From Erysipelotrichaceae bacterium (GTDB lineage Bacteria > Bacillota_I > Bacilli_A > Erysipelotrichales > Coprobacillaceae): DNA of 64,000 nucleotides. The notes under the pieces were generated by a model. It was given only the letters and a program-made list of their open reading frames with translations, was not told the origin of the DNA and ran no database searches. Below, piece by piece: positions 2,474 through 15,061 of this stretch. Positions within the stretch are counted from its first letter, which is position 1. Each line of letters opens with the position of its first letter. The stretch covers positions 1 through 64,000 of the forward strand of contig JAGBPZ010000071.1 of the NCBI GenBank assembly GCA_017633115.1, in the 5' to 3' direction. The translations under genes were made by a program, and so were the position numbers.

Positions 2474-4246
2474 TTATTCTTCGTCAAGAACGTGATATTT
2501 AGTTTTAGCTGTATAATGTGTGTGCAATAATTTTTCAGCTAATTCACTACCAGGTTCACCTAAATAATCTTTGTATAAAGCCTGAATCTGAGGGTTATCA
2601 CATGATACTCTTAAGTCCATGAGTTCGTCTTCATCATACAGAGCTTTCATACGTAATTCTTTATAGCCATAGCCCAATTCGCCATTCTTAACTTTAGAAG
2701 GGATAATAGACTGACCGCCACCATTGATACATCCACCAGGGCAACCCATGATTTCAATGAATGTGTACTTAGACTGACCAGCTTTAACTTCTTCTAATAA
2801 TGGTTTTGCATACTTCATGCTTGAAGCGATGGCAATCCACAATGTCTTACCTGCAACTTCAACAGCTGCTTCTTTAACGCCTTCCATACCACGGCAAGCT
2901 TCGAAATCAACTTTTTCAAGTTTCTTGTTTTCAACGATCTGCTTAACAGTACGTAAAGCTGCTTCCATAACACCACCAGTTGTACCGAAGATAACACCAG
3001 CACCAGTGTAGTCATGAACTAAGTCAGTATCGAAATCATCATCTTCAAGAGTTTCCCAATCAATACCCATCATCTTAATGAGTCTGCCGCATTCTCTTGT
3101 AGTTAATACGTAGTCTACATCTTCGACACCTGCAGTATTGCATTCTGGTCTTCTTGCTTCTGATTTCTTAGCGATACATGGCATGATTGAAACAGTAACG
3201 ATGTCTTTTGGATCGATACCATTATTTTCAGCCCAGTAGCTCTTTAAAATAGCACCAAACATCATATGTGGAGATTTTGCAGATGATAAGTGTGGTAATA
3301 ATTCAGGATACTGATATTCAATATATCTAACCCATCCTGGAGAACAAGATGTGAACATTGGTAAGACTGCATCAGGATTGTTCAGACGACGAAGTAATTC
3401 GCTGCCTTCTTCCATGATTGTCAAGTCAGCACTGTAGTTAGTGTCATAAACACGGTCAAAACCACAAGCCTTTAAAGCAGCTGCCATTTTGCCAGTAACA
3501 CGAGTACCGATTGGCATACCAAATTCTTCACCTAAAGATGCACGAACTGCAGGAGCAGTCTGAACGATAACTGTCTTAGTTGGATCGTTAAGAGCATCGA
3601 TAACATAGTGAATATCTTCTTTTTCAGTTAATGCGCCAACTGGACAGTTGATAACGCACTGACCACACTGCATACAGTTAACATCATTGAAGCCTTTGTT
3701 GAAAGCTGGACCCATGAATGTTTCGAAACCACGATTCTGTAAGCCTAAGATACCTAAGCCCTGAACCTTCTTACAAGTCTGGATACAACGTTCGCAAAGT
3801 ACACACTTAGAAGTATCTCTAACGATACCATAGCTTGCGTTTTCTAAAGTTGTAGGTGTATGAGCACCTTCAAATTTATTTTCACGAATGCCTAATTCTT
3901 CACATAATGTCTGTAATTCACAGTTCTGGTTTCTCTTACAAGATAAGCAGTTCTTGTTGTGGTTAGACATAATCAATTCAACAGTATTTCTGCGGCCTTT
4001 TAAAGCACGAGCAGAATTAGTGAAGACTTCCATGCCTTCAGATACTGGAGTTGTACATGCAGATAATAAAGTACGTGCATTCTTAACTTCAACTAAGCAG
4101 ACACGGCATGCACCAGATTTGTTGATGTCTTTTAAATAACATAGAGTTGGAATGTAAATTCCGTTTTCACGTGCAGCTTCAAGTACAGTTTGACCAGCTT
4201 CAGCAGTGATAGCTCTATTATTGATTTTTAAATTAACAGTTGCCAT
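2474..4246 (-). CDS. hydA: [FeFe]-hydrogenase catalytic subunit HydA (electron-bifurcating type)
   Basis: 590 aa, group A trimeric NAD-linked type. Domains in order: plant-type 2Fe-2S (residues 1-75, with CYLKDINKSGACRVC), a His-ligated 4Fe-4S motif (HNKNCLSCKRNQNCELQTLC, about 96-115), two 4Fe-4S motifs (CVLCERCIQTCK; CMQCGQCVINCP), then the H-cluster domain with L1 TSCSPGW, L2 MPCIAKK and L3 MGCPGGCINGGGQ, and a C-terminal small-subunit region. All H-cluster motifs look intact. The enzyme reduces protons with electrons from ferredoxin and NADH, or the reverse, in the cytoplasm with HydB and HydC. Last gene of the operon, 11 bp after hydB, with TAGGAGGAG upstream. No maturase genes (hydE, hydF, hydG) are in the window. 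Confidence 0.95.
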   Translation of the reverse strand: MATVNLKINNRAITAEAGQTVLEAARENGIYIPTLCYLKDINKSGACRVCLVEVKNARTLLSACTTPVSEGMEVFTNSARALKGRRNTVELIMSNHNKNCLSCKRNQNCELQTLCEELGIRENKFEGAHTPTTLENASYGIVRDTSKCVLCERCIQTCKKVQGLGILGLQNRGFETFMGPAFNKGFNDVNCMQCGQCVINCPVGALTEKEDIHYVIDALNDPTKTVIVQTAPAVRASLGEEFGMPIGTRVTGKMAAALKACGFDRVYDTNYSADLTIMEEGSELLRRLNNPDAVLPMFTSCSPGWVRYIEYQYPELLPHLSSAKSPHMMFGAILKSYWAENNGIDPKDIVTVSIMPCIAKKSEARRPECNTAGVEDVDYVLTTRECGRLIKMMGIDWETLEDDDFDTDLVHDYTGAGVIFGTTGGVMEAALRTVKQIVENKKLEKVDFEACRGMEGVKEAAVEVAGKTLWIAIASSMKYAKPLLEEVKAGQSKYTFIEIMGCPGGCINGGGQSIIPSKVKNGELGYGYKELRMKALYDEDELMDLRVSCDNPQIQALYKDYLGEPGSELAEKLLHTHYTAKTKYHVLDEE

Positions 4247-4257
4247 ACTTTCTCCTC

Positions 4258-6060
4258 CTACTTTCTGATGACTGCATTGAAACGACAGTTACTCATACAA
4301 GCACCACATTTGATACATTTAGTTGAATCAATGACATAAGGAACTTTACCAGGTGTACCTGAGATACAGCCAACTGGACAGTTTCTAGCACATAATGAGC
4401 ACTTTCTACATCTATCTGGATCGATTTCGTAAGTCAGCAATGCTTTACATACGCCTGCTGGACATTTCTTATCGATGATGTGAGCGAGATATTCATCACG
4501 GAAGCTCTTTAATGTTGATAAGATTGGGTTTGGAGCTGTCTGACCAAGACCGCATAATGCAGTATCCTGGATTTCATGACATAAGTCTTCCATTTCATCT
4601 AACATTTCTAAAGTACCTTTACCTTCAGTAATGTCAGTCAACATTTCTAATAATCTCTTAGTACCGATACGACATGGTGAACATTTACCACATGATTCGT
4701 CACAAATGAATTCCATATAGAATTTAGCAACGTCAACCATACAGTTGTCTTCATCAAGAACGATCATACCACCTGAACCCATCATTGAGCCAGCAGCAAT
4801 CAGGTTGTCGTAATCGATTGGAGTATCAAGTTCTTTTTCAGTTAAGCATCCACCTGATGGACCACCAGTCTGAACAGCTTTGAAAGCTTTATTATTTGGA
4901 CAGCCGCCACCGATTTCGTAGATGATTTCACGTAAAGTTGTACCCATAGGGATTTCAACAAGACCAGTATTCTTGATCTTACCACCAAGAGCGAATACCT
5001 TAGTACCTTTAGATTTTTCAGTACCCATAGATGCATACCAATCTGCACCTTTGTACATAATCTGAGCAACGTTTGCTAAAGTTTCAACGTTGTTGATTGA
5101 AGTAGGTTTGCCCCATACACCACTTACAGCTGGGAATGGTGGTTTTGGTGTTGGCATACCACGCTTACCTTCGATTGAAGCGATCAATGCAGTTTCTTCA
5201 CCACATACGAATGCACCAGCACCTAATCTGATTTCGATATCAAAATCGAAGCCAGTATCGAAGATGTTCTTACCTAAAAGACCATATTCATGAGCCTGCT
5301 GAATGGCAATTCTTAAACGGTTTACAGCGATTGGATATTCTGCACGGATGTAAACATAACCTAAATGAGCACCAACTGCATAAGCCATGATAGCCATACC
5401 TTCGATGATTGCATGTGGGTCACCTTCAAGGATTGAACGGTCCATGAATGCACCTGGGTCACCTTCGTCGGCATTACAGATAACGTATTTTTCATCACCT
5501 GGTGAATTACGTTCAAACTGCCATTTCAAACCAGTTGGGAAACCAGCACCACCACGACCTCTTAAGCCTGAAGCTTTCATTTCATCGATAACTTCCTGAG
5601 GTGTCATTTCAGTTAAAACTTTACCTAATGCAAGATAACCATCCATAGCGATGTATTCCATGATATCTTCTGGGTTGATCTTACCGCAGTTACGTAATGC
5701 GATACGTCTCTGTTTTTCATAGAATTTAATCTTTTCGATATCAAGAATCTTTTCACCACTATTTAAGTCTTCATCAGATAACTGTAATCTAGGTACAACA
5801 CGACCTTTATAAATGTGTTCAGCAACGATTTCAGCTGCATCTTCAGGTTTTACCTGTGCATAGAAAATGTTATCTGGATAGATAGCAACGATAGGACCCT
5901 TCTGGCATAAACCGAAGCATCCAGTTCTAACAACGTTAGCTTCATTTTCAAGTCCGTACTCTTTTAACGCTTTTTCAAATTCGTCACAGATTTCTGCAGA
6001 TCTACTTGCAGTACATCCTGTACCAGCACAGACTAGAATATTCGTACGATAATTTGGCAT
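4258..6060 (-). CDS. hydB: NuoF-like diaphorase subunit HydB
   Basis: 600 aa. An N-terminal thioredoxin-like 2Fe-2S domain (CAGTGC and CFGLC) is followed by the NuoF core: the Gly-rich GRGGAGFPTGLKW NADH/FMN region, GAGAFVCGEETALI, and the CxxCxxC ligand set CGKCSPC with a fourth Cys in LCGLGQ. A C-terminal ferredoxin domain holds two 4Fe-4S motifs (CRKCSLCARNCP, CIKCGACMSNC). This layout is that of HydB in bifurcating hydrogenases; it binds NAD(H) and FMN and is thought to be the bifurcation site. The start codon shares one base with the stop of the preceding gene (TAATG), indicating translational coupling. Confidence 0.95.
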   Translation of the reverse strand: MPNYRTNILVCAGTGCTASRSAEICDEFEKALKEYGLENEANVVRTGCFGLCQKGPIVAIYPDNIFYAQVKPEDAAEIVAEHIYKGRVVPRLQLSDEDLNSGEKILDIEKIKFYEKQRRIALRNCGKINPEDIMEYIAMDGYLALGKVLTEMTPQEVIDEMKASGLRGRGGAGFPTGLKWQFERNSPGDEKYVICNADEGDPGAFMDRSILEGDPHAIIEGMAIMAYAVGAHLGYVYIRAEYPIAVNRLRIAIQQAHEYGLLGKNIFDTGFDFDIEIRLGAGAFVCGEETALIASIEGKRGMPTPKPPFPAVSGVWGKPTSINNVETLANVAQIMYKGADWYASMGTEKSKGTKVFALGGKIKNTGLVEIPMGTTLREIIYEIGGGCPNNKAFKAVQTGGPSGGCLTEKELDTPIDYDNLIAAGSMMGSGGMIVLDEDNCMVDVAKFYMEFICDESCGKCSPCRIGTKRLLEMLTDITEGKGTLEMLDEMEDLCHEIQDTALCGLGQTAPNPILSTLKSFRDEYLAHIIDKKCPAGVCKALLTYEIDPDRCRKCSLCARNCPVGCISGTPGKVPYVIDSTKCIKCGACMSNCRFNAVIRK

Positions 6061-6440
6061 TATACATTACCCTCCGCTTTTCTAGCAGCTTCTACTGTGA
6101 ATTTTTCAATGACATGACCCTGACCGACATGTTCCTGAAGAATTCTGACTGCTCTATGTGGATCAACATGGACATAAGTTGTATGGTTACCATCTTTGTC
6201 GTATACTTCAACGATTGGTTCATAAGTACACATACCGATACAACCAGTCTGAGTGACTAAACAATCATAATCATTCTTTGCAGTTTCCTCAACAAGACGG
6301 TTTAATACAGGTCTTGCACCAGCAGCGATACCACAAGTTGCCATACCAACAACTATACGATATGTTTTGCCACCTTCACGCATCTCTACTTTTTTCAGAG
6401 CTGACTCACGCATCTTCTTGAGATCTTCCAAACTTTTCAT
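6060..6440 (-). CDS. Thioredoxin-like (2Fe-2S) ferredoxin-domain protein
   Basis: 126 aa. Contains the TCGIAAGARPVLN and QTGCIGMCTYEP segments of the small thioredoxin-fold 2Fe-2S proteins common in clostridial hyd operons, similar to the N-terminal domain of HydB. It shows three candidate cluster Cys (one in the first motif, two in the second), which is usual for this subgroup. Likely an extra electron carrier or assembly partner of HydB, with which its stop overlaps. Its own start overlaps the end of the upstream HATPase gene by four bases. Confidence 0.85.
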   Translation of the reverse strand: MKSLEDLKKMRESALKKVEMREGGKTYRIVVGMATCGIAAGARPVLNRLVEETAKNDYDCLVTQTGCIGMCTYEPIVEVYDKDGNHTTYVHVDPHRAVRILQEHVGQGHVIEKFTVEAARKAEGNV

Positions 6441-6994
6441 TGTGTATCCTCCTCCTTAGCTTGTTCAATTCCCTGGTTTATATAATCTTTGATCCATAAT
6501 AATATTTCTGGCAATAGAAGGCTGACGCCATCTAATGTTTCTCTAATCATTTTTGTGTCGAAATGGAATGCATTGACATCAGTAATGTAATCAAATTCAT
6601 AATCGATGTCGCCATTCGACTGGATTGACTCCATCAGGATTTCCCCAATGTCGCCAAGTTCTGGTGTGTCTATATTAAGTTTTTGTACAGTGGCTGTGAC
6701 TGTTGTGCCGACGCCTAACTGGGAATCAATCTTAAATGTCCCGTTACAGGTTTCTGCGAGTCCTTTCATGAACGAAAGACCTAAACCAATCTTTCTTGTT
6801 GTACGAGATGTTGTAAATGGATCAGCTGCTTTGGCTGCCATTTCTTCACTCATACCTTTACCATCATCGATAATTTCAATCTTGATCACATCTTGATCTA
6901 AACTATCAGTGATTCTTAAGATGATCAGACTGGCACCTGCTTTTATGGAATTCATCAGGATTTCCAATATATGCATGGCAATATCTTCCATCAT
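6437..6994 (-). CDS. HATPase-fold ATP-binding protein of the hyd operon
   Basis: 185 aa. A GHKL-type ATP-binding domain occupies residues 1-110: N-box HILEILMNSIKAGAS, G1 box DDGKGM, and G2 region GLGLSFMKGLAET. There is no dimerisation/His-phosphoacceptor domain, so it is not a complete histidine kinase. The C-terminal 70 residues are not recognised. It probably acts as a regulatory ATPase or kinase within the operon. The start ATG overlaps the PHP stop (ATGA). Confidence 0.8.
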   Translation of the reverse strand: MMEDIAMHILEILMNSIKAGASLIILRITDSLDQDVIKIEIIDDGKGMSEEMAAKAADPFTTSRTTRKIGLGLSFMKGLAETCNGTFKIDSQLGVGTTVTATVQKLNIDTPELGDIGEILMESIQSNGDIDYEFDYITDVNAFHFDTKMIRETLDGVSLLLPEILLWIKDYINQGIEQAKEEDTQ

Positions 6995-7692
6995 AAGTCT
7001 TCACCCCACAATTTTTGATAAACAGAATCACGTAAATAATGATCTGCTTCGCTCATTTCGACTAAGCGATGAGCATCACTGTCAATAAACCAATTGGTAG
7101 AATCTTCAGTGATCCATGGATTCGACTCAATCACACGCAATCTCTGTTCTTCCGATTTTACTTCCAGGCCATCGTATGGTAAATCCATTGGAATGAAACC
7201 AAGCTGATTGGTCACACTATTAGCACGGTCTAAGACATGGGCCAATATTGCTCTTCCACCATATTTGTGAATGGCATCTACTGTTTGTTCTAATGTCGCA
7301 TAGAGTGACACTAGCAGCAAACGTCGTTCATGAGCAATGATTTCATCCTTTTCATTCATGATCCATTGATGACCAAAGAAATCTTCATCAAGTTCTACTT
7401 CAGGCATATAGAAATCAATCCATTCCTGAAATTTCTGACTCTTTTCTAATGTATTGAACAATCCCAATACATGAACTTCTTCGTTGGTCTCAATTTCAAC
7501 ACCATACAATAACTTCATCCCTACTTGTTTAGCAACTTTATCGATCGCTGGCAGCTGTTTGGTTGAATTATGGTCCGTTACAGCAATGAGATCCAAACCG
7601 ATAATTGATGCCATATTGACAATATTGTTAGGGGTCATTTCATCTTCAGCACATGGTGACAGACAACTGTGCATGTGTAAGTCATAAAACAT
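6991..7692 (-). CDS. PHP-domain metal-dependent phosphoesterase
   Basis: 233 aa. The N-terminus DLHMHSCLSPCAEDEMTPN and the AVTDHNST segment carry the PHP metal ligands, and further ligands are in GVEIETNEEVHVLG and the C-terminal WFIDSDAHR. PHP proteins hydrolyse phosphoesters with a tri-metal centre; its substrate is unknown. It lies between the DRTGG and HATPase genes, coupled at both ends, which suggests a signalling role for the hydrogenase operon rather than DNA repair. Confidence 0.85.
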   Translation of the reverse strand: MFYDLHMHSCLSPCAEDEMTPNNIVNMASIIGLDLIAVTDHNSTKQLPAIDKVAKQVGMKLLYGVEIETNEEVHVLGLFNTLEKSQKFQEWIDFYMPEVELDEDFFGHQWIMNEKDEIIAHERRLLLVSLYATLEQTVDAIHKYGGRAILAHVLDRANSVTNQLGFIPMDLPYDGLEVKSEEQRLRVIESNPWITEDSTNWFIDSDAHRLVEMSEADHYLRDSVYQKLWGEDL

Positions 7693-7693
7693 T

Positions 7694-8026
7694 TTAGATA
7701 CCTAAAGATGCAAGTGTTTTTGCAGTTTCGTATTCAGGTAATCCACTTTCAATCAAAATCATTTCTTCTTCAATGAACTTGTTGATAAATTCAGGTGTAA
7801 CATTGGCATTTTCAGCAACGATGATGCAGGCAAAGTCACGTAACAAAGCAACTGCAATCACATTTGAATGAACCTGAACTGTGATCCATGCCTGACCAGG
7901 CTGGCCTTTACCCATGACCCAGCTTAACAAGTCACCACAGTATGCACCTTCGATTTCCATTGAAGTGTCTAATTCTGGTGTGTCAAGTTTCCAGTTAGTT
8001 TTTTCTATTAATTCAGCTATTGTCAT
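7694..8026 (-). CDS. DRTGG-domain protein (second copy in hyd operon)
   Basis: 110 aa. The segment GAYCGDLLSWVMGKGQPGQAW followed by hydrophobic beta-strand/helix repeats matches the DRTGG/HPr-kinase-N-like fold found in these operons. There are no catalytic motifs, so a sensor or scaffold role is likely. It overlaps the upstream H-cluster gene by 14 bases and ends just before the PHP gene. A second DRTGG protein is encoded at 9622-9987. Confidence 0.75.
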   Translation of the reverse strand: MTIAELIEKTNWKLDTPELDTSMEIEGAYCGDLLSWVMGKGQPGQAWITVQVHSNVIAVALLRDFACIIVAENANVTPEFINKFIEEEMILIESGLPEYETAKTLASLGI

Positions 8027-9197
8027 TTTCTTTCTCCTTCAATGCGTTGAGTACACGGCAATCTTTTTCATTTTTATTGCCTTTGACAATTTCTTCTGCC
8101 ATCAGACGACATGTCTGCATACCACAGGCACTGCAGTCATATCCTGGCAGACGTTCAAGCTGTGCAGTCACATCTTTGAAAAAACGTGTACGCTCAATGA
8201 ATGAACGCTTATCTTCAGTTGTCTTCCAAAAATCTTCAGTATAGAATTCTTCGAATGGTATATCGGATTCTTTCTTGTTGCAAACTTCTTTTAAACTATC
8301 AATATTATTTTTCATAACGAAGCTGTTGCCCCATAAAAGATGTCCACCAATACAGCCATTGAAGCATGGATAGAGAATCAATAATTTGAATTGATTCAGC
8401 AATCCAAATTCCGCCATATCAAGTACTTTGCAGATTTTGTCAAAGCCATCTGCGATTAAATAGTCATCTTTAGCAATGATACGTAATGGATTGGATGTCT
8501 GTAATCCTTCCAGACAGAAGTTCACTTCTTCTTTACCGGTATGAAGATTCCTTCTGATTGTAGGGAACACATCAACAAGTGCTAAAGCATGGTCAATTTC
8601 ATAATCCCCATCATTTGGATGTTTCGCAATGGCCAGCTTAGCCTCACATTCACATAAATTGAAGATGCCGACATTTTTATCACTTAGGCGTTTACGAATC
8701 TGTTTAGCGGCAATTTCCGCATCATAATTGATTGGCAGGATTGTTTCCTGAAGGACTTTATAACGATTTGCAATTAAATGATTGATGACCGGACAGAATG
8801 ATGAAATATAAGTATCATCACCATCATCAGCAAGTAAGTATGATTCTTTCATACGTCTTGCAGTGACATCGGAAATATCGATGACTTCATCAAACCCCAA
8901 CATCTTAATCGCATGGAACAATTCCTGGGCTTCTTCAGCACTTGAACAATGATTGATCAAAGCTCCTGGTACCATACAAACTGTATAATCATAATCCTTA
9001 ATTGCTTCTAAAGAACTGCCTTTGGCAACAATCCCCTGGTTGGTACATGATTGGATACAATGACCACAACCAATGCAGCGCTCATCATTGATGACGATAC
9101 GATTGCCAACACGAGATAAGGCACTTGTAGGACAGTTACGTACGCATTTCATACAACGTACACATTGATCCATTGTATACTTTACGCTGTTAATCAT
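8013..9197 (-). CDS. H-cluster-domain protein, sensory-type [FeFe]-hydrogenase homologue
   Basis: 394 aa. The N-terminus has two 4Fe-4S motifs (CVRCMKCVRNCP, CIGCGHCIQSC). The middle aligns with the hydrogenase large-subunit domain: L1 is SSFCPVINHL instead of TSC(C/S)PxW, L2 is LCECEAKL instead of PCxAKK, and L3 is YPCFNGCIGG. One Cys each in L1 and L2 and two in L3 are retained, but the neighbouring Cys of L1 is Phe. The C-terminus carries a 4Fe-4S 'Fes' motif (YDCSACGMQTC). There is no PAS domain, unlike HydS. This pattern fits sensor-type hydrogenase homologues that respond to H2 or redox state rather than turning over H2; that role is inferred. Confidence 0.85.
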   Translation of the reverse strand: MINSVKYTMDQCVRCMKCVRNCPTSALSRVGNRIVINDERCIGCGHCIQSCTNQGIVAKGSSLEAIKDYDYTVCMVPGALINHCSSAEEAQELFHAIKMLGFDEVIDISDVTARRMKESYLLADDGDDTYISSFCPVINHLIANRYKVLQETILPINYDAEIAAKQIRKRLSDKNVGIFNLCECEAKLAIAKHPNDGDYEIDHALALVDVFPTIRRNLHTGKEEVNFCLEGLQTSNPLRIIAKDDYLIADGFDKICKVLDMAEFGLLNQFKLLILYPCFNGCIGGHLLWGNSFVMKNNIDSLKEVCNKKESDIPFEEFYTEDFWKTTEDKRSFIERTRFFKDVTAQLERLPGYDCSACGMQTCRLMAEEIVKGNKNEKDCRVLNALKEKENDNS

Positions 9198-9622
9198 ACG
9201 TCAGATCTGAATGACAGTGTAAGTGTCGTTCCGTCCTTTCCAGACTGGATGTCAAATTCATCAGACACACGAAGAATATTTGGCAATCCCATACCTGCAC
9301 CAAAACCCATAGCACGTGCTTTTTCACTTGCAGTTGACCATCCCGGTGTTAACGCTTTTTCGATATCTTCAATGCCTGGTCCTGGGTCTTTAAAGACCAG
9401 TTTCACAGTTCCGTCATCAAAGATATCCATTGTAATATCGCCACCCCAGGCATGAATCAGCATGTTAATTTCTGACTCATAACTGGCGACTGCAATACGT
9501 CTCATCACTTTTGGACTAAAGCCGATTTTCTTGAGTGTACGCTTGATATCTGAACTGACACGTCCTGCAGATGCATAGTCGTCACGTTCAACGACATAAT
9601 CTTGATGAAAAACAACTTCCAT
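9194..9622 (-). CDS. RsbT/anti-sigma-like HATPase of the hyd operon
   Basis: 142 aa. A single HATPase domain of the anti-sigma-factor/RsbT class: N-box ASYESEINMLIHAWGG, DPGPGIEDIEKAL, and the Gly-rich GFGAGMGLPNI. It could be a Ser/Thr protein kinase or an ATP-dependent switch. It overlaps the neighbouring genes at both ends, so the three middle genes are probably made in fixed ratio. The pairing with a DRTGG protein just upstream recalls partner-switching modules, but no STAS partner is visible. Confidence 0.8.
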   Translation of the reverse strand: MEVVFHQDYVVERDDYASAGRVSSDIKRTLKKIGFSPKVMRRIAVASYESEINMLIHAWGGDITMDIFDDGTVKLVFKDPGPGIEDIEKALTPGWSTASEKARAMGFGAGMGLPNILRVSDEFDIQSGKDGTTLTLSFRSDV

Positions 9623-9987
9623 TAGATTGCACCTCCTAAGCCGTTAGCATATAAGATACCGCATGCTTCATACATAGAATAATCTGTACCAAGTAAGACA
9701 ATATCCATATCAACTGCCATCTGAATAAATTCATCTGGTGGATACTTTCCTCTAACGAGAATCGCAAATGTCATATCAAGCATTTCCAAAGTGCGAAAAG
9801 TCTGATCGGCTGCTAAACCTGTGATGAGGACTGTAATATCAAAATCATCCTGACACATTGCCAGAACATCACTCATCAAATCTGTTGCAAACGCTTTGGT
9901 AAACTCACGTTCCTGTGCATATTCATCCCAAAGTGTATATGTAATTGGAACAGCCTTTAGCAATTTAGCAATTTCTTTTGCTTTCAT
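9622..9987 (-). CDS. DRTGG-domain protein (first copy in hyd operon)
   Basis: 121 aa. The sequence alternates hydrophobic strands and helices (MCQDDFDITVLITGLAAD and AILVRGKYPPDEFIQMA) as in DRTGG/HPr-kinase-N-like proteins of hyd operons. It has no Cys pairs and no nucleotide motif. It lies between hydC and the HATPase gene and is likely a ligand-sensing partner of that ATPase, by position only. Confidence 0.7.
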   Translation of the reverse strand: MKAKEIAKLLKAVPITYTLWDEYAQEREFTKAFATDLMSDVLAMCQDDFDITVLITGLAADQTFRTLEMLDMTFAILVRGKYPPDEFIQMAVDMDIVLLGTDYSMYEACGILYANGLGGAI

Positions 9988-9995
9988 TCAAACCT

Positions 9996-10493
9996 CTATG
10001 CTACTTTGTCGTGTTCTTCAGCAATGATTTTTGTGAGTGCTTTGACAAGTTTGTTCTGTTCATTTGCCTGACCAATTACGTGATCATCAATGACAGCAAC
10101 TGGAGCTAAACCACATGCACCTAAACAACGAGTTGCATCAACTGAGAATAAACCATCAGGGCTTGTACCATTAACTGGAGCTCCTGTTAATTCAGTTGCA
10201 CGGTCAACAAGCGCCTGAGCACCTTTAACATAGCATGCTGTACCAAGGCAAATGTTGATGACATGTTTACCTTTAGGTTCTGTAGTAAACTGTGCATAGA
10301 ATTTTACTACACCGTAAACTTCAGCCACACTAGTGCCGCATGCATCGGCAATTTTTTCCATTGCTTCAAAAGGAATGTAACCAATTTTGTTCTGTACGTC
10401 ATGTAACATAACGATTGTTGGTCCTGGTTCATCCTTATGAGCTGCTACAATTGCATCGATATCTGCTAATGCAGCTGGACTTAATCTTTCCAT
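9996..10493 (-). CDS. hydC: NuoE-like 2Fe-2S subunit HydC
   Basis: 165 aa. A NuoE-family thioredoxin-fold protein with the four ligands CLGTAC (C-x4-C) and CLGAC (C-x3-C), and the family segments EVYGVVKFYAQF and GPTIVMLHDVQNKIGYIP. HydC transfers electrons between the HydB flavin and HydA. It is the first gene of the operon, preceded by AAGGAGGAAT. Here hydC is separated from hydB by seven genes, whereas in Thermotoga the three subunit genes are adjacent. Confidence 0.93.
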   Translation of the reverse strand: MERLSPAALADIDAIVAAHKDEPGPTIVMLHDVQNKIGYIPFEAMEKIADACGTSVAEVYGVVKFYAQFTTEPKGKHVINICLGTACYVKGAQALVDRATELTGAPVNGTSPDGLFSVDATRCLGACGLAPVAVIDDHVIGQANEQNKLVKALTKIIAEEHDKVA

Positions 10494-10563: not shown

Positions 10564-10600
10564 ATTATATCATAAATATATCTAGTTAGTGAAAACTAAC
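10564..10600 (-). promoter_or_regulatory. Hydrogenase operon promoter with overlapping inverted repeat
   Basis: On the minus strand, -35 TTCACT (10588-10593) and -10 TATAAT (10564-10569) are 18 bp apart. The -35 box lies inside a perfect inverted repeat, GTTAGT-GAAA-ACTAAC (10585-10600). A regulator bound here would block the polymerase. The repeat is not a clear Rex site (TTGTTAA-N4-TTAACAA), though its centre spacing is similar. Confidence 0.55.
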
Positions 10601-10874: not shown

Positions 10875-12215
10875 TTGGGTTTATTAACTGGTCGTATAGA
10901 ACGACATTTAATCAGTCATAAAGACATAACAAAAGATAAGCCTATTATCGAAATGCCTGCACCAGATCGCATTTATATTCCTCTAGTTTGCGGCATGGCT
11001 ACTGATTTTGACATTCTTGTCAAAGCCGGTGATCATGTAGATATCGGCACTATGATTGCCCGTCGCAAAAGTATGGATGTTCCTTTATACGCAACTGTTT
11101 CAGGCACTGTGGTAGGCACAGAAAAGCGCATGCATGCGAGTCGTCGTCCGCAAAATCATATCGTCATTGAAAATGACCACAAAGATACCTTTGTGCCAAT
11201 CGTCGATACATCCAATGTCGATGAATGCAGTCGCGAAGAATTATTCGAACGCATGAAACTCATTGGTTTGATGGGCATGGGTGGCTCTGGCTTTCCTACT
11301 TATATGAAATATACCAAAACTGACAATATCGATACGATACTGATTAACGGTGTTGAATGTGAACCTTACATCACCAGCGACCATGTCACAATGAAATTAC
11401 ACACAAAAGCATTGTTTGATGGATTAAAGCTGATGATGCGTATCGCTGATGCACAAAATGGGATTATCGCTATTAAAGAAGGCAAAGTTGAACTACAAAA
11501 AATTCTCGAACGCGAAGTTTTCAATCATCCTAATATCGATATAGCCATCGTCAAAGACGTCTATCCAATGGGATGGGAACGTCATTTGATCCGCACAGTA
11601 ACCGAAAAGTTATATGATAAACTGCCTTCAGAAGTTGGCATCATCGTCAACAATGCAACGACAGCTATCGCTTTATCTTATGGACTCCGCGAAGGCAAAC
11701 CGGTCACTCATCGACTGGTCACTGTCAGTGGTGACATCGCCAATCCATGTAACGTCCATGTCCGTGTTGGCACTCCAGTCCATGATATTTTAGAATACTG
11801 TGACATCCATGATGAAGGTGACTTCTATCTTATTTCTGGTGGTCCGATGATGGGATTATCATTACGTAACGATTTATTTGTCATTTCATCTTATATGAAT
11901 GCCATTACGATTAAACGTGTGCCAGAAGATGAATCGGCACCATGTATGCGTTGTGGTTACTGCACCCTTCATTGTCCGCAGAATCTGCAGCCAGTACGTA
12001 TTATGAATGCCGAAAAATTGATGGATACCGATTTACTTAGAAAACTTGATGTCGAAAGTTGTATCAATTGCGGTTTCTGTAGTTTCATCTGCCCTTCACG
12101 TATTGAAGTCACTGGTTATATCCAGATGGCTAAGCGTCGTCTGCAGATTGAAGCACGTAAGCAGCAGACTGCCCAGAAACGACGCGAATCACAAAAGAAG
12201 GAGGTTAAATCATGA
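10875..12215 (+). CDS. rnfC: Rnf complex subunit RnfC
   Basis: 446 aa. Soluble NADH-binding subunit of the ferredoxin:NAD oxidoreductase (Rnf), which pumps Na+ or H+. The N-terminal barrel-like region is followed by the Gly-rich MGMGGSGFPTYMK segment and NGVECEPYITSD of the NADH/FMN fold, then two 4Fe-4S motifs near residues 360-415 (CMRCGYCTLHCPQ and CINCGFCSFICPS). The start is TTG at 10875 with GAGGT eight bases upstream. First gene of the rnf operon, whose order rnfCDGEA(B) is the clostridial one. Confidence 0.93.
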   Translation: MGLLTGRIERHLISHKDITKDKPIIEMPAPDRIYIPLVCGMATDFDILVKAGDHVDIGTMIARRKSMDVPLYATVSGTVVGTEKRMHASRRPQNHIVIENDHKDTFVPIVDTSNVDECSREELFERMKLIGLMGMGGSGFPTYMKYTKTDNIDTILINGVECEPYITSDHVTMKLHTKALFDGLKLMMRIADAQNGIIAIKEGKVELQKILEREVFNHPNIDIAIVKDVYPMGWERHLIRTVTEKLYDKLPSEVGIIVNNATTAIALSYGLREGKPVTHRLVTVSGDIANPCNVHVRVGTPVHDILEYCDIHDEGDFYLISGGPMMGLSLRNDLFVISSYMNAITIKRVPEDESAPCMRCGYCTLHCPQNLQPVRIMNAEKLMDTDLLRKLDVESCINCGFCSFICPSRIEVTGYIQMAKRRLQIEARKQQTAQKRRESQKKEVKS

Positions 12216-13306
12216 ATTATCTGATCAAACCTGCAAGTCCTTCGTATAAACGTCGTCGCCGTACCCGCGACATTATGAAAGAACTTTTGATTGGACTTTA
12301 CGTACTTGCTGTTTATGCCGTAGGCTTCCAGCTCTTTGTTTTTGGCTGGCAGCGTGCACTTAGAGTTCTCGCCATCTTTGTCTTGGCAACATTGACCTCA
12401 TTAGCAACTGAGGTCATCTGGGGACGTATGCATGAATCTGATTTCCAAAAAATCATGGAAAAACAGTTCCCATTAATTACGCCAATCATTTATGCCTTTA
12501 CGCTACCAGCCACAACACCTTTCTATATTGTCATGCTGGGCGCTTTCCTGGCTACTTTCTTTGGCAAACTGGTTTATGGTGGCTTTGGACAAAATATTTT
12601 TAATCCTGCATTAGTTGGTCGTGTCATCATCCATTTATCATTCCCTACTGCTATGAAACCTACGGTCATGATTGATGGTATGACTTCTGCGACGCCAGCA
12701 TCAGCCTTAGCTTCAGCCAACTGGTTCTATAATCATGGCTATGTCTTCAATGTGATGGACATTGTCAAGGGCACTTATGGGGGCGCTATCGTTGAAACAT
12801 GCGTCATTCCAATTATCATTGTCGCTATCTGTTTATCAATACGTCAGATTTATGATTTACGTCTGTCATTGTCATTCTTAGGTACAGTCGCTGTGATTGC
12901 CTTATTCATGGGCTTAGTTATGGGCGTCAATCCTGTCACTAATATGGCTATTCATTTATGCCTTGGGGGATTGATCTTTGGTGCCTTCTTTATGGCTAGT
13001 GATCCCGTCACGACCCCTACTTCACCATTCGGAAAAATCTTGTTTGGTATTGGTATGGGCTTTATGACAATGTTGATCCGTACCAAAGCAAATTATCCTG
13101 AAGGTGTCTTAATTTCTATTTTGATCTTCAATATGCTTGTGCCACTATTTGATGGTATCACTATGGGACGTACTGACCGTAACCTCATTAGACGTTACAT
13201 TCTGTTGGTTGCAGCTGTCGCACTGGCAACAATCATTATCTGTATCATCGTTTCTGGATTTGAACCAGTCGCTGCCTTCTCTATGATTGGAGGTGTACTG
13301 TCATGA
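12212..13306 (+). CDS. rnfD: Rnf complex subunit RnfD
   Basis: 364 aa integral membrane protein with about ten hydrophobic segments. It contains the RnfD/NqrB-type segments PLITPIIYAFTLPATTPF and FNPALVGRVIIHLSFP, and MTSATPAS in the region where the family carries a covalently bound FMN (an S/T-x-AT type Thr). The start overlaps the rnfC stop (ATGA). Basic residues are enriched in the first 25 positions, as expected for a cytoplasmic N-terminus. Confidence 0.92.
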   Translation: MNYLIKPASPSYKRRRRTRDIMKELLIGLYVLAVYAVGFQLFVFGWQRALRVLAIFVLATLTSLATEVIWGRMHESDFQKIMEKQFPLITPIIYAFTLPATTPFYIVMLGAFLATFFGKLVYGGFGQNIFNPALVGRVIIHLSFPTAMKPTVMIDGMTSATPASALASANWFYNHGYVFNVMDIVKGTYGGAIVETCVIPIIIVAICLSIRQIYDLRLSLSFLGTVAVIALFMGLVMGVNPVTNMAIHLCLGGLIFGAFFMASDPVTTPTSPFGKILFGIGMGFMTMLIRTKANYPEGVLISILIFNMLVPLFDGITMGRTDRNLIRRYILLVAAVALATIIICIIVSGFEPVAAFSMIGGVLS

Positions 13307-13839
13307 AGTCAATTATGAAACTTGGTATCGTTTTAGCACTTGTTGCCGCTATTTCTGGAGGCATGCTCTCCTACGTTTATAATTTGACTAATCCAATTAT
13401 TGAAGCCGCCAATTTACAGCGACGCGAAGAACAGCTTACTTCCATCTATGATGGTGGTGAAGAATTCGTTGAAATCACTGATTATATTGATCAGTTCAGC
13501 ACAATTACCAATTGCTTTAAAGTTGTTAAAGATAATACTGTTGAAGGTTATGTCTATCAGATGTCAGTCAATGGCTATGGTGGCAAAGTCACTTATCTTG
13601 TCGCTTTAGATGAATCAGGCATCTACAAAGGCTATGAAACCATCGATGTCACAACTGAAACAAGCGGTTTTGGCAGCCGTGTTGCTACCGACGAAATGAA
13701 AGCTAAAGTTATTGGCAAAGATATCGGTTCTAAGCTTGATGCTTTAACTGGTGCTACGATCACATCAAGTGCCGTCATCAGAGGAATCGATGATGCTGTT
13801 GCTCATTATCAAATGCTGAAAGGTGGTAAATCTTCATGA
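13303..13839 (+). CDS. rnfG: Rnf complex subunit RnfG (covalent FMN)
   Basis: 178 aa with one N-terminal membrane anchor (residues 5-27) and an extracytoplasmic FMN-binding domain. The LTGATITSS motif near residue 150 is the flavinylation site, with FMN joined through phosphoester to the second Thr of GATIT. It overlaps rnfD and rnfE by ATGA. No ApbE flavin transferase, needed for this modification, is encoded in the window. Confidence 0.92.
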   Translation: MKSIMKLGIVLALVAAISGGMLSYVYNLTNPIIEAANLQRREEQLTSIYDGGEEFVEITDYIDQFSTITNCFKVVKDNTVEGYVYQMSVNGYGGKVTYLVALDESGIYKGYETIDVTTETSGFGSRVATDEMKAKVIGKDIGSKLDALTGATITSSAVIRGIDDAVAHYQMLKGGKSS

Positions 13840-14489
13840 AAGACAAATTAAATATCATCAAAAACGGCATCATTAAGGAAAATCCAATCTTCATCATGTT
13901 GTTGGGTCTCTGTTCAGCACTTGCCATTTCCACTTCACTCACTAATGCGGTTGGTATGGGTATGGCTGTTACCTTTGTATTGATTATGAGTAACGTCATC
14001 ATTTCTACCATCCGTCACCTGATTCCTGATGAAATCCGTATTCCAGTCTTTATTGTCATCATTGCAACAGCCGTTAAATGTGTACAGTTCTTGATGAACG
14101 CTTATACTCCTGCACTATATACATCGCTGGGCGTCTTCATTCCTTTGATTGTCGTCAACTGTATCATCCTTGGCCGTGCTGAAAGTTTTGCTTCAAAAAA
14201 CAGCGTTATTGATTCTTTATGCGACGCGATCGGCATGGGGCTCGGCTATACACTAGCATTACTGATCATCTCCGCTATTCGTGAGTTGATTGGTACTGGT
14301 GGCTTGAGCTTCGTCAATCCATTTAATGCTACACAAACAATTTTCCGATTCTCATTCTTTAAAAGTTGTGCCATCTCATTATTGACTCAGCCATCTGGCG
14401 CCTTTATTACCCTGGGTTGTATCCTGGCTTACTTACAGCATCGTCGACTGAAAAAAGTTATTGAAATCCAGAAAGGAGAACGCAAATAA
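13836..14489 (+). CDS. rnfE: Rnf complex subunit RnfE
   Basis: 217 aa with six predicted membrane helices. Family segments include ENPIFIMLLGLCSALAIS near the N-terminus and PLIVVNCIILGRAESFASKN, whose Cys is one of the conserved Cys that RnfE and RnfA use for a shared intramembrane iron-sulfur centre. Overlaps rnfG by four bases and touches rnfA. Confidence 0.92.
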   Translation: MKDKLNIIKNGIIKENPIFIMLLGLCSALAISTSLTNAVGMGMAVTFVLIMSNVIISTIRHLIPDEIRIPVFIVIIATAVKCVQFLMNAYTPALYTSLGVFIPLIVVNCIILGRAESFASKNSVIDSLCDAIGMGLGYTLALLIISAIRELIGTGGLSFVNPFNATQTIFRFSFFKSCAISLLTQPSGAFITLGCILAYLQHRRLKKVIEIQKGERK

Positions 14490-15061
14490 TGAAACTATTT
14501 GAATTATTCATCTCACTGGCTTTCGTCAACAATGTCGTCCTGTCAAAGTTCTACGCCATCTGCCCATTAATGGGTGTATCCAAGAAGCCGAAAAATGCCC
14601 TCAATATGGGGCTGGCTGTCATCTTTGTCATCGTTATTGCATCAATCGTGACATGGTTACTTTACTATTATGTGCTCGTTCCTTTAGATATCATCTATAT
14701 GGATTTGATCACCTTCATTCTTGTTATCGCATCACTGGTTCAGTTCCTGGAAATGTTGCTGAAGAAAACAAGCCCTGAAGTCTATAAAGCTATGGGTGTT
14801 TATCTACCACTTATTACAACGAACTGTGCCGTTCTTGGTGTTGCTCTTGACAATATCACTGCTGGTTACAATCTCATCGAAGCGATTGTAGCTGGATTCG
14901 CAGTATCATTTGGCTTCCTGGCCGTTATTTATATCTTCGCATTGATTCGCGAACGTCTTGACTATTCAGATGTTCCTGAAGCATTCAGAGGTGCACCGAT
15001 TGCTCTTATTTCAGCAGGTATCATGGCATGTGCTATCTGCGGATTGGCAGGTTTGATTTAA
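14489..15061 (+). CDS. rnfA: Rnf complex subunit RnfA
   Basis: 190 aa with six membrane helices, homologous to RnfE in inverted topology. It contains FVNNVVLSKFYAICPLMGVS and PLITTNCAVLGVALDN, each with the conserved Cys of the family. The stop shares one base with the next start (TAATG at 15059-15063). Confidence 0.93.
   Translation: MKLFELFISLAFVNNVVLSKFYAICPLMGVSKKPKNALNMGLAVIFVIVIASIVTWLLYYYVLVPLDIIYMDLITFILVIASLVQFLEMLLKKTSPEVYKAMGVYLPLITTNCAVLGVALDNITAGYNLIEAIVAGFAVSFGFLAVIYIFALIRERLDYSDVPEAFRGAPIALISAGIMACAICGLAGLI

Follow-up and report, generated by a model that had tools for sequence, protein, structure and literature searches.

The stretch of DNA analysed here (the window) covers 64,000 nucleotides of contig JAGBPZ010000071.1 from an Erysipelotrichaceae bacterium. 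It carries a ten-gene operon in the order HydC, s121, HATP1, a HydS-like protein, s110, PHP, HATP2, a [2Fe-2S] ferredoxin, HydB, and HydA (Table 1). The HydS-like gene is the fourth of the ten, between HydC and HydA, in agreement with its placement inside a hydABC operon by the initial annotation, and its open reading frame shares 4 and 14 bases with the flanking genes. Residue and motif coordinates of the protein were verified by translating the open reading frame. On the plus strand, a run of genes identified by eye as Rnf-like (10875-15061; RnfC- and RnfD-like) is transcribed divergently from the hyd operon.

Table 1. The hyd operon of the window and the motifs of its HydS-like protein, listed from upstream to downstream.
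Feature	Positions	Strand	Remarks
Promoter-like site TTCACT-18-TATAAT, TG ahead of -10	10564-10593	minus	precedes the operon; such sites are no commoner than in shuffles
HydC (NuoE-like), operon gene 1	9996-10493	minus	Pfam/NCBIfam profiles
s121, small protein	9622-9987	minus	weak HprK-N similarity, DRTGG in homologues; Ser39 invariant in 17/17
HATP1, RsbW/SpoIIAB-like HATPase	9194-9622	minus	directly upstream of the HydS-like gene; ATP motifs look intact
HydS-like protein, group D lineage	8013-9197	minus	394 aa, ATG at 9197
Two N-terminal [4Fe-4S] motifs, C12-C51	9045-9164	minus	Cys invariant in alignments A1 and A3
L1 SSFCP, residues 132-136	8790-8804	minus	ligand C135; F134 at the relay-Cys position
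L2 CECEAK, residues 182-187	8637-8654	minus	C182 at the 353 position, E183 replaces Pro, ligand C184, K187 at the 358 position
Segment EGLQTSNPLRIIA	8472-8510	minus	at the site of the GGE loop (E252) of TamHydS-like proteins
L3 LYPCFNGC, residues 275-282	8352-8375	minus	ligands C278 and C282; Y276 at the 497 position
C-terminal Cx2Cx4Cx16C cluster motif, PF04060	8058-8135	minus	Pfam match and translation
s110, small protein	7694-8026	minus	weak HprK-N/DRTGG similarity; Ser35 invariant in 19/19
PHP-domain phosphoesterase	6991-7692	minus	metal-type His/Asp/Glu invariant in 18/18
HATP2, histidine-kinase-type HATPase	6437-6994	minus	
Thioredoxin-like [2Fe-2S] ferredoxin	6060-6440	minus	
HydB (NuoF-like, 2Fe-2S and two 4Fe-4S)	4258-6060	minus	
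HydA, group A6 [FeFe] hydrogenase	2474-4246	minus	NF040763, 855 bits (cut-off 765)
Terminator-like hairpin	2434-2462	minus	3' of hydA

The ATP-site residues of HATP1 and the metal-type residues of PHP are invariant among the aligned operon homologues. The similarity of the window's s121 and s110 to HprK-N and DRTGG domains stays below threshold. Pfam detected neither a STAS protein nor a sigma factor among the ten operon genes, and anti-sigma partner switching by HATP1 was rejected for this reason. The L1 motif of HydA, TSCSPGW, is shared with the solved HydA1 of A. woodii (7q4v), and the operon's HydA is of the same type as this enzyme and other bifurcating HydABC hydrogenases of group A6. 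The HydS-like protein, in contrast, lacks their catalytic residues.

The arrangement of the operon is widely conserved. In the first 18 loci, the core gene order is identical wherever the open reading frames are readable, the exceptions being HydC placed beside the ferredoxin gene in several loci of two families, a split HydB (L049), an uncalled s121 (L036), and antisense reading frames that mask genes (L045, L048). Most of 80 further loci on named contigs have the same order, with gaps at contig ends or where GC-rich antisense reading frames win; an Alkaliphilus locus (L140) deviates. In the closest relative (L073), a gene for a TM1266-like regulator lies close to the operon, upstream of HydC.

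According to the initial annotation, the HydS-like protein retains the H-cluster ligand cysteines of L1, L2, and L3, carries Phe where L1 would have its proton-relay Cys, has lost the Pro of L2, and contains no PAS domain. Translation bears out the ligands (C135, C184, C278, and C282), the Phe (F134), and the lost Pro (now E183), and the Pfam scan found no PAS domain at E ≤ 0.001, which is normal for group D. The altered position of L1 corresponds to C299 of CpI, the relay Cys that marks the catalytic group A. The two N-terminal [4Fe-4S] motifs, the C-terminal cluster, HATP1 as a second HATPase, and the small proteins s121 and s110 are additions to the initial annotation. In addition, I274, whose codon immediately precedes the L3 stretch, stands at the position of E289.

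The protein matches PF02906 (E 4.6e-8) and PF04060 (E 1.3e-9). The H-domain match is weak, at 33 bits versus 317 for the HydA of the operon. An AlphaFold model built from 38 sequences (pLDDT 89.9) aligns with CbA5H over 316 residues (Z 28.6, rmsd 2.7) and with CpI entries at Z values of about 22 to 26; sequence identity to the solved hydrogenases compared is ~14-20%. A whole-protein sequence search of the PDB returned only ferredoxin-type or other Fe-S matches, limited to the N-terminus. The kinship with the H-domain is drawn from Pfam and the predicted fold, not from the PDB sequence search. Taken with the conservation of the ligand Cys, the two Pfam matches and the fold match make the H-domain assignment more than chance.

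Group D (M2e) has an architecture known for TamHydS of Thermoanaerobacter mathranii. Members have no PAS domain, are often operon-linked to a group A hydrogenase, and were earlier proposed as an alternative sensory type without PAS, as set out by Land et al. (PMC8163306). A sensory proposal for the lineage is thus already known. In a maximum-likelihood tree of 62 proteins, the HydS-like protein groups with the proteins of group D (35 rows, support 100/100), separate from 12 rows of group A, 4 of group B, and 10 of the PAS-type group C; the C label is verified by a PAS domain in 3/10 rows and the B label by TIGR04105 in 1/4. The phylogeny with groups A-D that the initial annotation had proposed as a check thus places the protein in group D. 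TamHydS, TmHydS, and CpI are not in this tree, and the join of its long A and B branches is flagged as unsafe. The Erysipelotrichales branch to which the protein belongs is itself long (1.0 change per column, 100/100).

The protein resembles TamHydS in its two N-terminal [4Fe-4S] motifs, its H-domain, the C-terminal Cx2Cx4Cx16C motif, and the absence of both PAS and Cys299, and the tree position is likewise that of group D. The operons are also alike in that a HATPase accompanies a group A hydrogenase in each (PMC8163306, PMC10407848, and PMC13104023). The C-terminal cluster of TamHydS is not reduced by H2 (PMC13104023). The window protein differs from TamHydS by Phe at 299, Cys182 rather than Ser at 353, where group D has a hydroxyl residue (Ser/Thr), and loss of the GGE loop with E252 and of E289, a proton path lost in its clade. 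The window operon differs by its ten genes, which include the PHP and DRTGG-like genes. TmHydS of Thermotoga maritima, a sensory protein of group C (M2f), similarly combines an H-domain with a C-terminal FeS domain, lacks the relay Cys, and is a proposed sensor. However, the window protein lacks the C-terminal PAS domain of group C, has other pocket residues, and belongs to a clade apart from the ten PAS-type proteins of the tree. The initial annotation held that sensor-type hydrogenases are altered at the same L1 site. This applies to two PAS-type proteins, with Ala (L030) or Ser (L032), but 4/6 keep CC at L1; loss of Cys299 is therefore not a general mark of sensors.

The extent of residue loss was followed through 98 loci (18 plus 80 on named contigs), which gave 96 full-length proteins, or 97 with the window's; three genomes occur twice. 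The ligand Cys of L1 and L3 are present in 97/97 and that of L2 in 96/97, the remaining protein having a gap. The homologues split into three sets. The TamHydS-like branch, mostly of Clostridia (n = 42), has A299 in 41, S/T353 and E289 in all 42, and the GGE loop with its E252 in 39. Two further families (n = 7), in several loci of which HydC adjoins the ferredoxin gene, have Q, H, or N at 299, S/T353, N358, and E289 in 7/7, with E252 in 0/7. The Erysipelotrichales branch (n = 48, window included) retains the ligand Cys in all 48, save for the one L2 gap, and K358 in 43. It has F299 in 41, C353 in 43, F/Y497 in 39, E289 in 1, E252 in none, and Cys or Ala at 299 in 0/48. TamHydS, CpI, and TmHydS are outside this alignment: their positions were mapped through motifs given in the papers, and E252 and E289 were located from the surrounding sequence that the primers of PMC10407848 imply, without aligning TamHydS. 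What is new is this Erysipelotrichales branch, which lacks the group D proton path.

The consequences of such losses can be judged from TamHydS, whose protons are proposed to travel by way of E252 and E289. In PMC10407848, the E252V and E252D variants keep <0.01% of H2 oxidation and the E289A and E289D variants ≤3%, and the E252 variants show little or no shift under H2. Since the branch has lost this pair besides Cys299, a direct H2-reporting H-cluster is doubtful. The "sensory-type H-cluster" of the initial annotation thus holds as regards a lineage proposed to be sensory without PAS, and is weakened as regards the H-cluster. In CpI, K358 anchors a cyanide of the [2Fe] unit. Its retention in 43/48 proteins of the branch indicates that [2Fe] may still bind; in the HydS-like protein, [2Fe] is probably absent or unused for turnover.

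HydF is a maturase of the H-cluster cofactor, and HydG is regarded as the source of its CO and CN ligands. Of 80 related genomes, 68 gave a PF02906 match, 14 a HydF over the cut-off, and 10 a HydG over the cut-off, two of these with stops. In the 20 genomes that carry the HydS-like gene, HydF was found in 4 (the window's genome, G000, and G025, G223, and G043) and HydG in 3, and HydF was not found in the other 16. When 33 of the 80 named HydS loci were traced to their genomes (33 in total), HydF was found in 7. The sequences of L106 and L096 are identical to those of L036 and L044, which makes G209 Massilimicrobiota timonensis An13 and G291 Dielma fastidiosa JC13; neither HydF nor HydG was found in these two. 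HydA from HydF-negative loci has all three H-cluster motifs in 38/38 (35 distinct), and HydA of the same operons as the HydS-like proteins keeps the H-cluster ligands and K358 in 71/71. Therefore, the H-cluster is presumably made by some route in these cells.

Pocket residues were rejected as a marker of maturase loss, the F299 type occurring both with HydF (G025, G223) and without it. In most genomes with HydABC and HydS in the same order, no HydF was found, nor HydG where tested, and the HydA motifs are intact. The maturase genes beside the hyd operon of G324 are broken or poorly sequenced: at C108, where HydF has the same place as in G343 (genome of L102, VE202-01), HydG has six internal stops and HydF is split. 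A MAG labelled as Coriobacteriaceae (G358, L191) has adjacent HydF and HydE, with no HydG seen within 20 kb.

Because the cluster-holding Cys are kept and the H2-handling residues are lost, the HydS-like protein is probably a signalling relay rather than an enzyme. The reading we favour, with moderate confidence, is that it represents a divergent, Erysipelotrichales-type branch of group D HydS that no longer turns over H2 and serves as an Fe-S relay acting on the operon's HATPases and PHP. It would hold three or four [4Fe-4S] clusters, one of them at the H-cluster site, and would receive electrons from the HydABC/ferredoxin pool. Its redox state would alter the activity of the RsbW-like kinase HATP1, of HATP2, or of both; a possible target is the serine conserved in every row of s110 and of s121, from which PHP would remove the phosphate. 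The level or activity of the hydrogenase would thereby track the redox state. Reporting to the nearby HATPase and PHP proteins, as first suggested, is supported by the residue losses and the strongly conserved operon order; the part of that suggestion in which an H-cluster reports H2 directly is doubtful.

It is rather unlikely that the protein is a genuine H2 sensor with a complete H-cluster, whose altered pocket slows turnover and whose state is passed to HATP1/HATP2. Such a role has been proposed for group D and would suit the retained ligand Cys, the mostly retained K358, and neighbours of a signalling type. It has to contend with the loss of E252, E289, and the GGE loop, given the behaviour of the TamHydS E252 variants under H2, and with the missing HydF in 16/20 gene-carrying genomes, although this last point weighs equally on HydA. 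We consider it improbable that the protein is a non-signalling accessory subunit of HydABC, serving electron transfer or structure: the hyd genes are almost always adjacent and there are four Fe-S sites, but the gene sits in a kinase- and phosphatase-like block away from hydB, and the A. woodii and T. kivui enzymes are reported as solved HydABC complexes. There is very little to recommend a scaffold or carrier for H-cluster assembly, comparable to NifEN for FeMo-co. It would explain a HydA paralogue with a non-catalytic pocket in genomes without a found HydF, yet several genomes (e.g. G113, G011) have HydA with neither a HydF found nor a full HydS-like match, and T. saccharogumia and others carry both HydF and HydS; HydS as the missing maturase was rejected as the main reading on account of G113 and G011. 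Least probable of all is an active [FeFe] hydrogenase whose protons take an unusual path, which would fit the H-domain fold but not the replacement of the relay Cys299 and of the group D pair E252/E289.

Both HydE and HydF are present in the window's genome, and HydG gave no match over the cut-off there (95.9% complete, 171 contigs; an assembly gap is possible). HydF without detected HydG occurs in four genomes: G000, G175, G188, and G317. HydE was seen in HydF-positive genomes as a cross-match of the HydG model, not through a model of its own. These four genomes share an island of Hyp and nitrogenase-like genes (L153 5548 to L154 1386 in G175; L155 and L157 in G188 and G317; L035 and L158 in the window's genome). 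The order in G175, G188, and G317 is a HydB-like flavoprotein, HydA, NifH-like, NifD-like, NifE-like, HypF, HypC, HypD, HypE, a second pair of NifD-like and NifE-like, HydF, and HydE, with a group B hydrogenase nearby. In the window's genome, one contig (L158) holds NifH-like, NifD-like, NifE-like, and a HypF truncated where the contig stops, and another (L035) the end of HypD, HypE, TM1266, NifH-like, NifD-like, NifE-like, HydF, and HydE; HypC was not seen in this genome.

HypF, HypD, and HypE of G175 exceed their cut-offs. HypE ends in PRIC, HypD has CGTH and GPGCPVC, the NifH-like protein has a P-loop and both cluster Cys, and HydF and HydE have their Fe-S motifs. HypC, HypD, HypE, and HypF derive CN from carbamoyl phosphate and lead to the Fe(CN)2CO unit. 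HypD is present in G000 (a contig-end fragment below the cut-off), G175, G188, G317, G311 (82% complete, the contig ending inside HypD), G076, G043, and G053. In a search of 16 genomes for the large subunit of [NiFe] hydrogenase, G043 and G076 gave a match; G000, G175, G188, G317, G311, and G053 gave none. The NifE-like marker exceeds 300 bits in 4/80 genomes, all HydF-positive and HydG-negative, and in 0/10 HydG-positive genomes (4/4 vs 0/10, Fisher p 0.001, a value that ignores kinship, the four genomes being three genera of one family). Across 392 genomes of the phylum, the strong NifE-like matches are the same four.

This gene content hints at an H-cluster maturation that is independent of HydG in the window's genome and its three relatives. 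We tentatively propose, as a possibility we hold somewhat below even confidence, that HypC/D/E/F, the NifH-like protein, and the two nitrogenase-like pairs replace HydG and feed HydE and HydF, with the HydS-like protein as an Fe-S-only regulator of the hydrogenase. No description of such a route was found in the literature on HydG absence, Hyp/Nif links, and group D, viewed mostly at the level of titles and abstracts, which falls short of proving novelty. PMC9431212 describes, with no firm explanation, acetogens that have HydE and HydF, no detected HydG, and in some cases HypCDEF without HypAB.

The observation on the HydS-like protein is confirmed, and the protein belongs to a known family; new are the loss, across its branch, of the residues that handle H2 and the adjoining maturation puzzle. 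Group D has been studied as an H2 sensor on the basis of one enzyme. A branch that keeps the gene order without the H2-handling residues would uncouple the role of the module from H2 chemistry, and it points to residues worth testing. The maturation gap is weightier than the branch: if the proposal is true, the island of HypCDEF, nitrogenase-like proteins, HydE, and HydF would be a second biosynthetic route, and it would bear on why several acetogens lack hydG, for which PMC9431212 gives no firm explanation.
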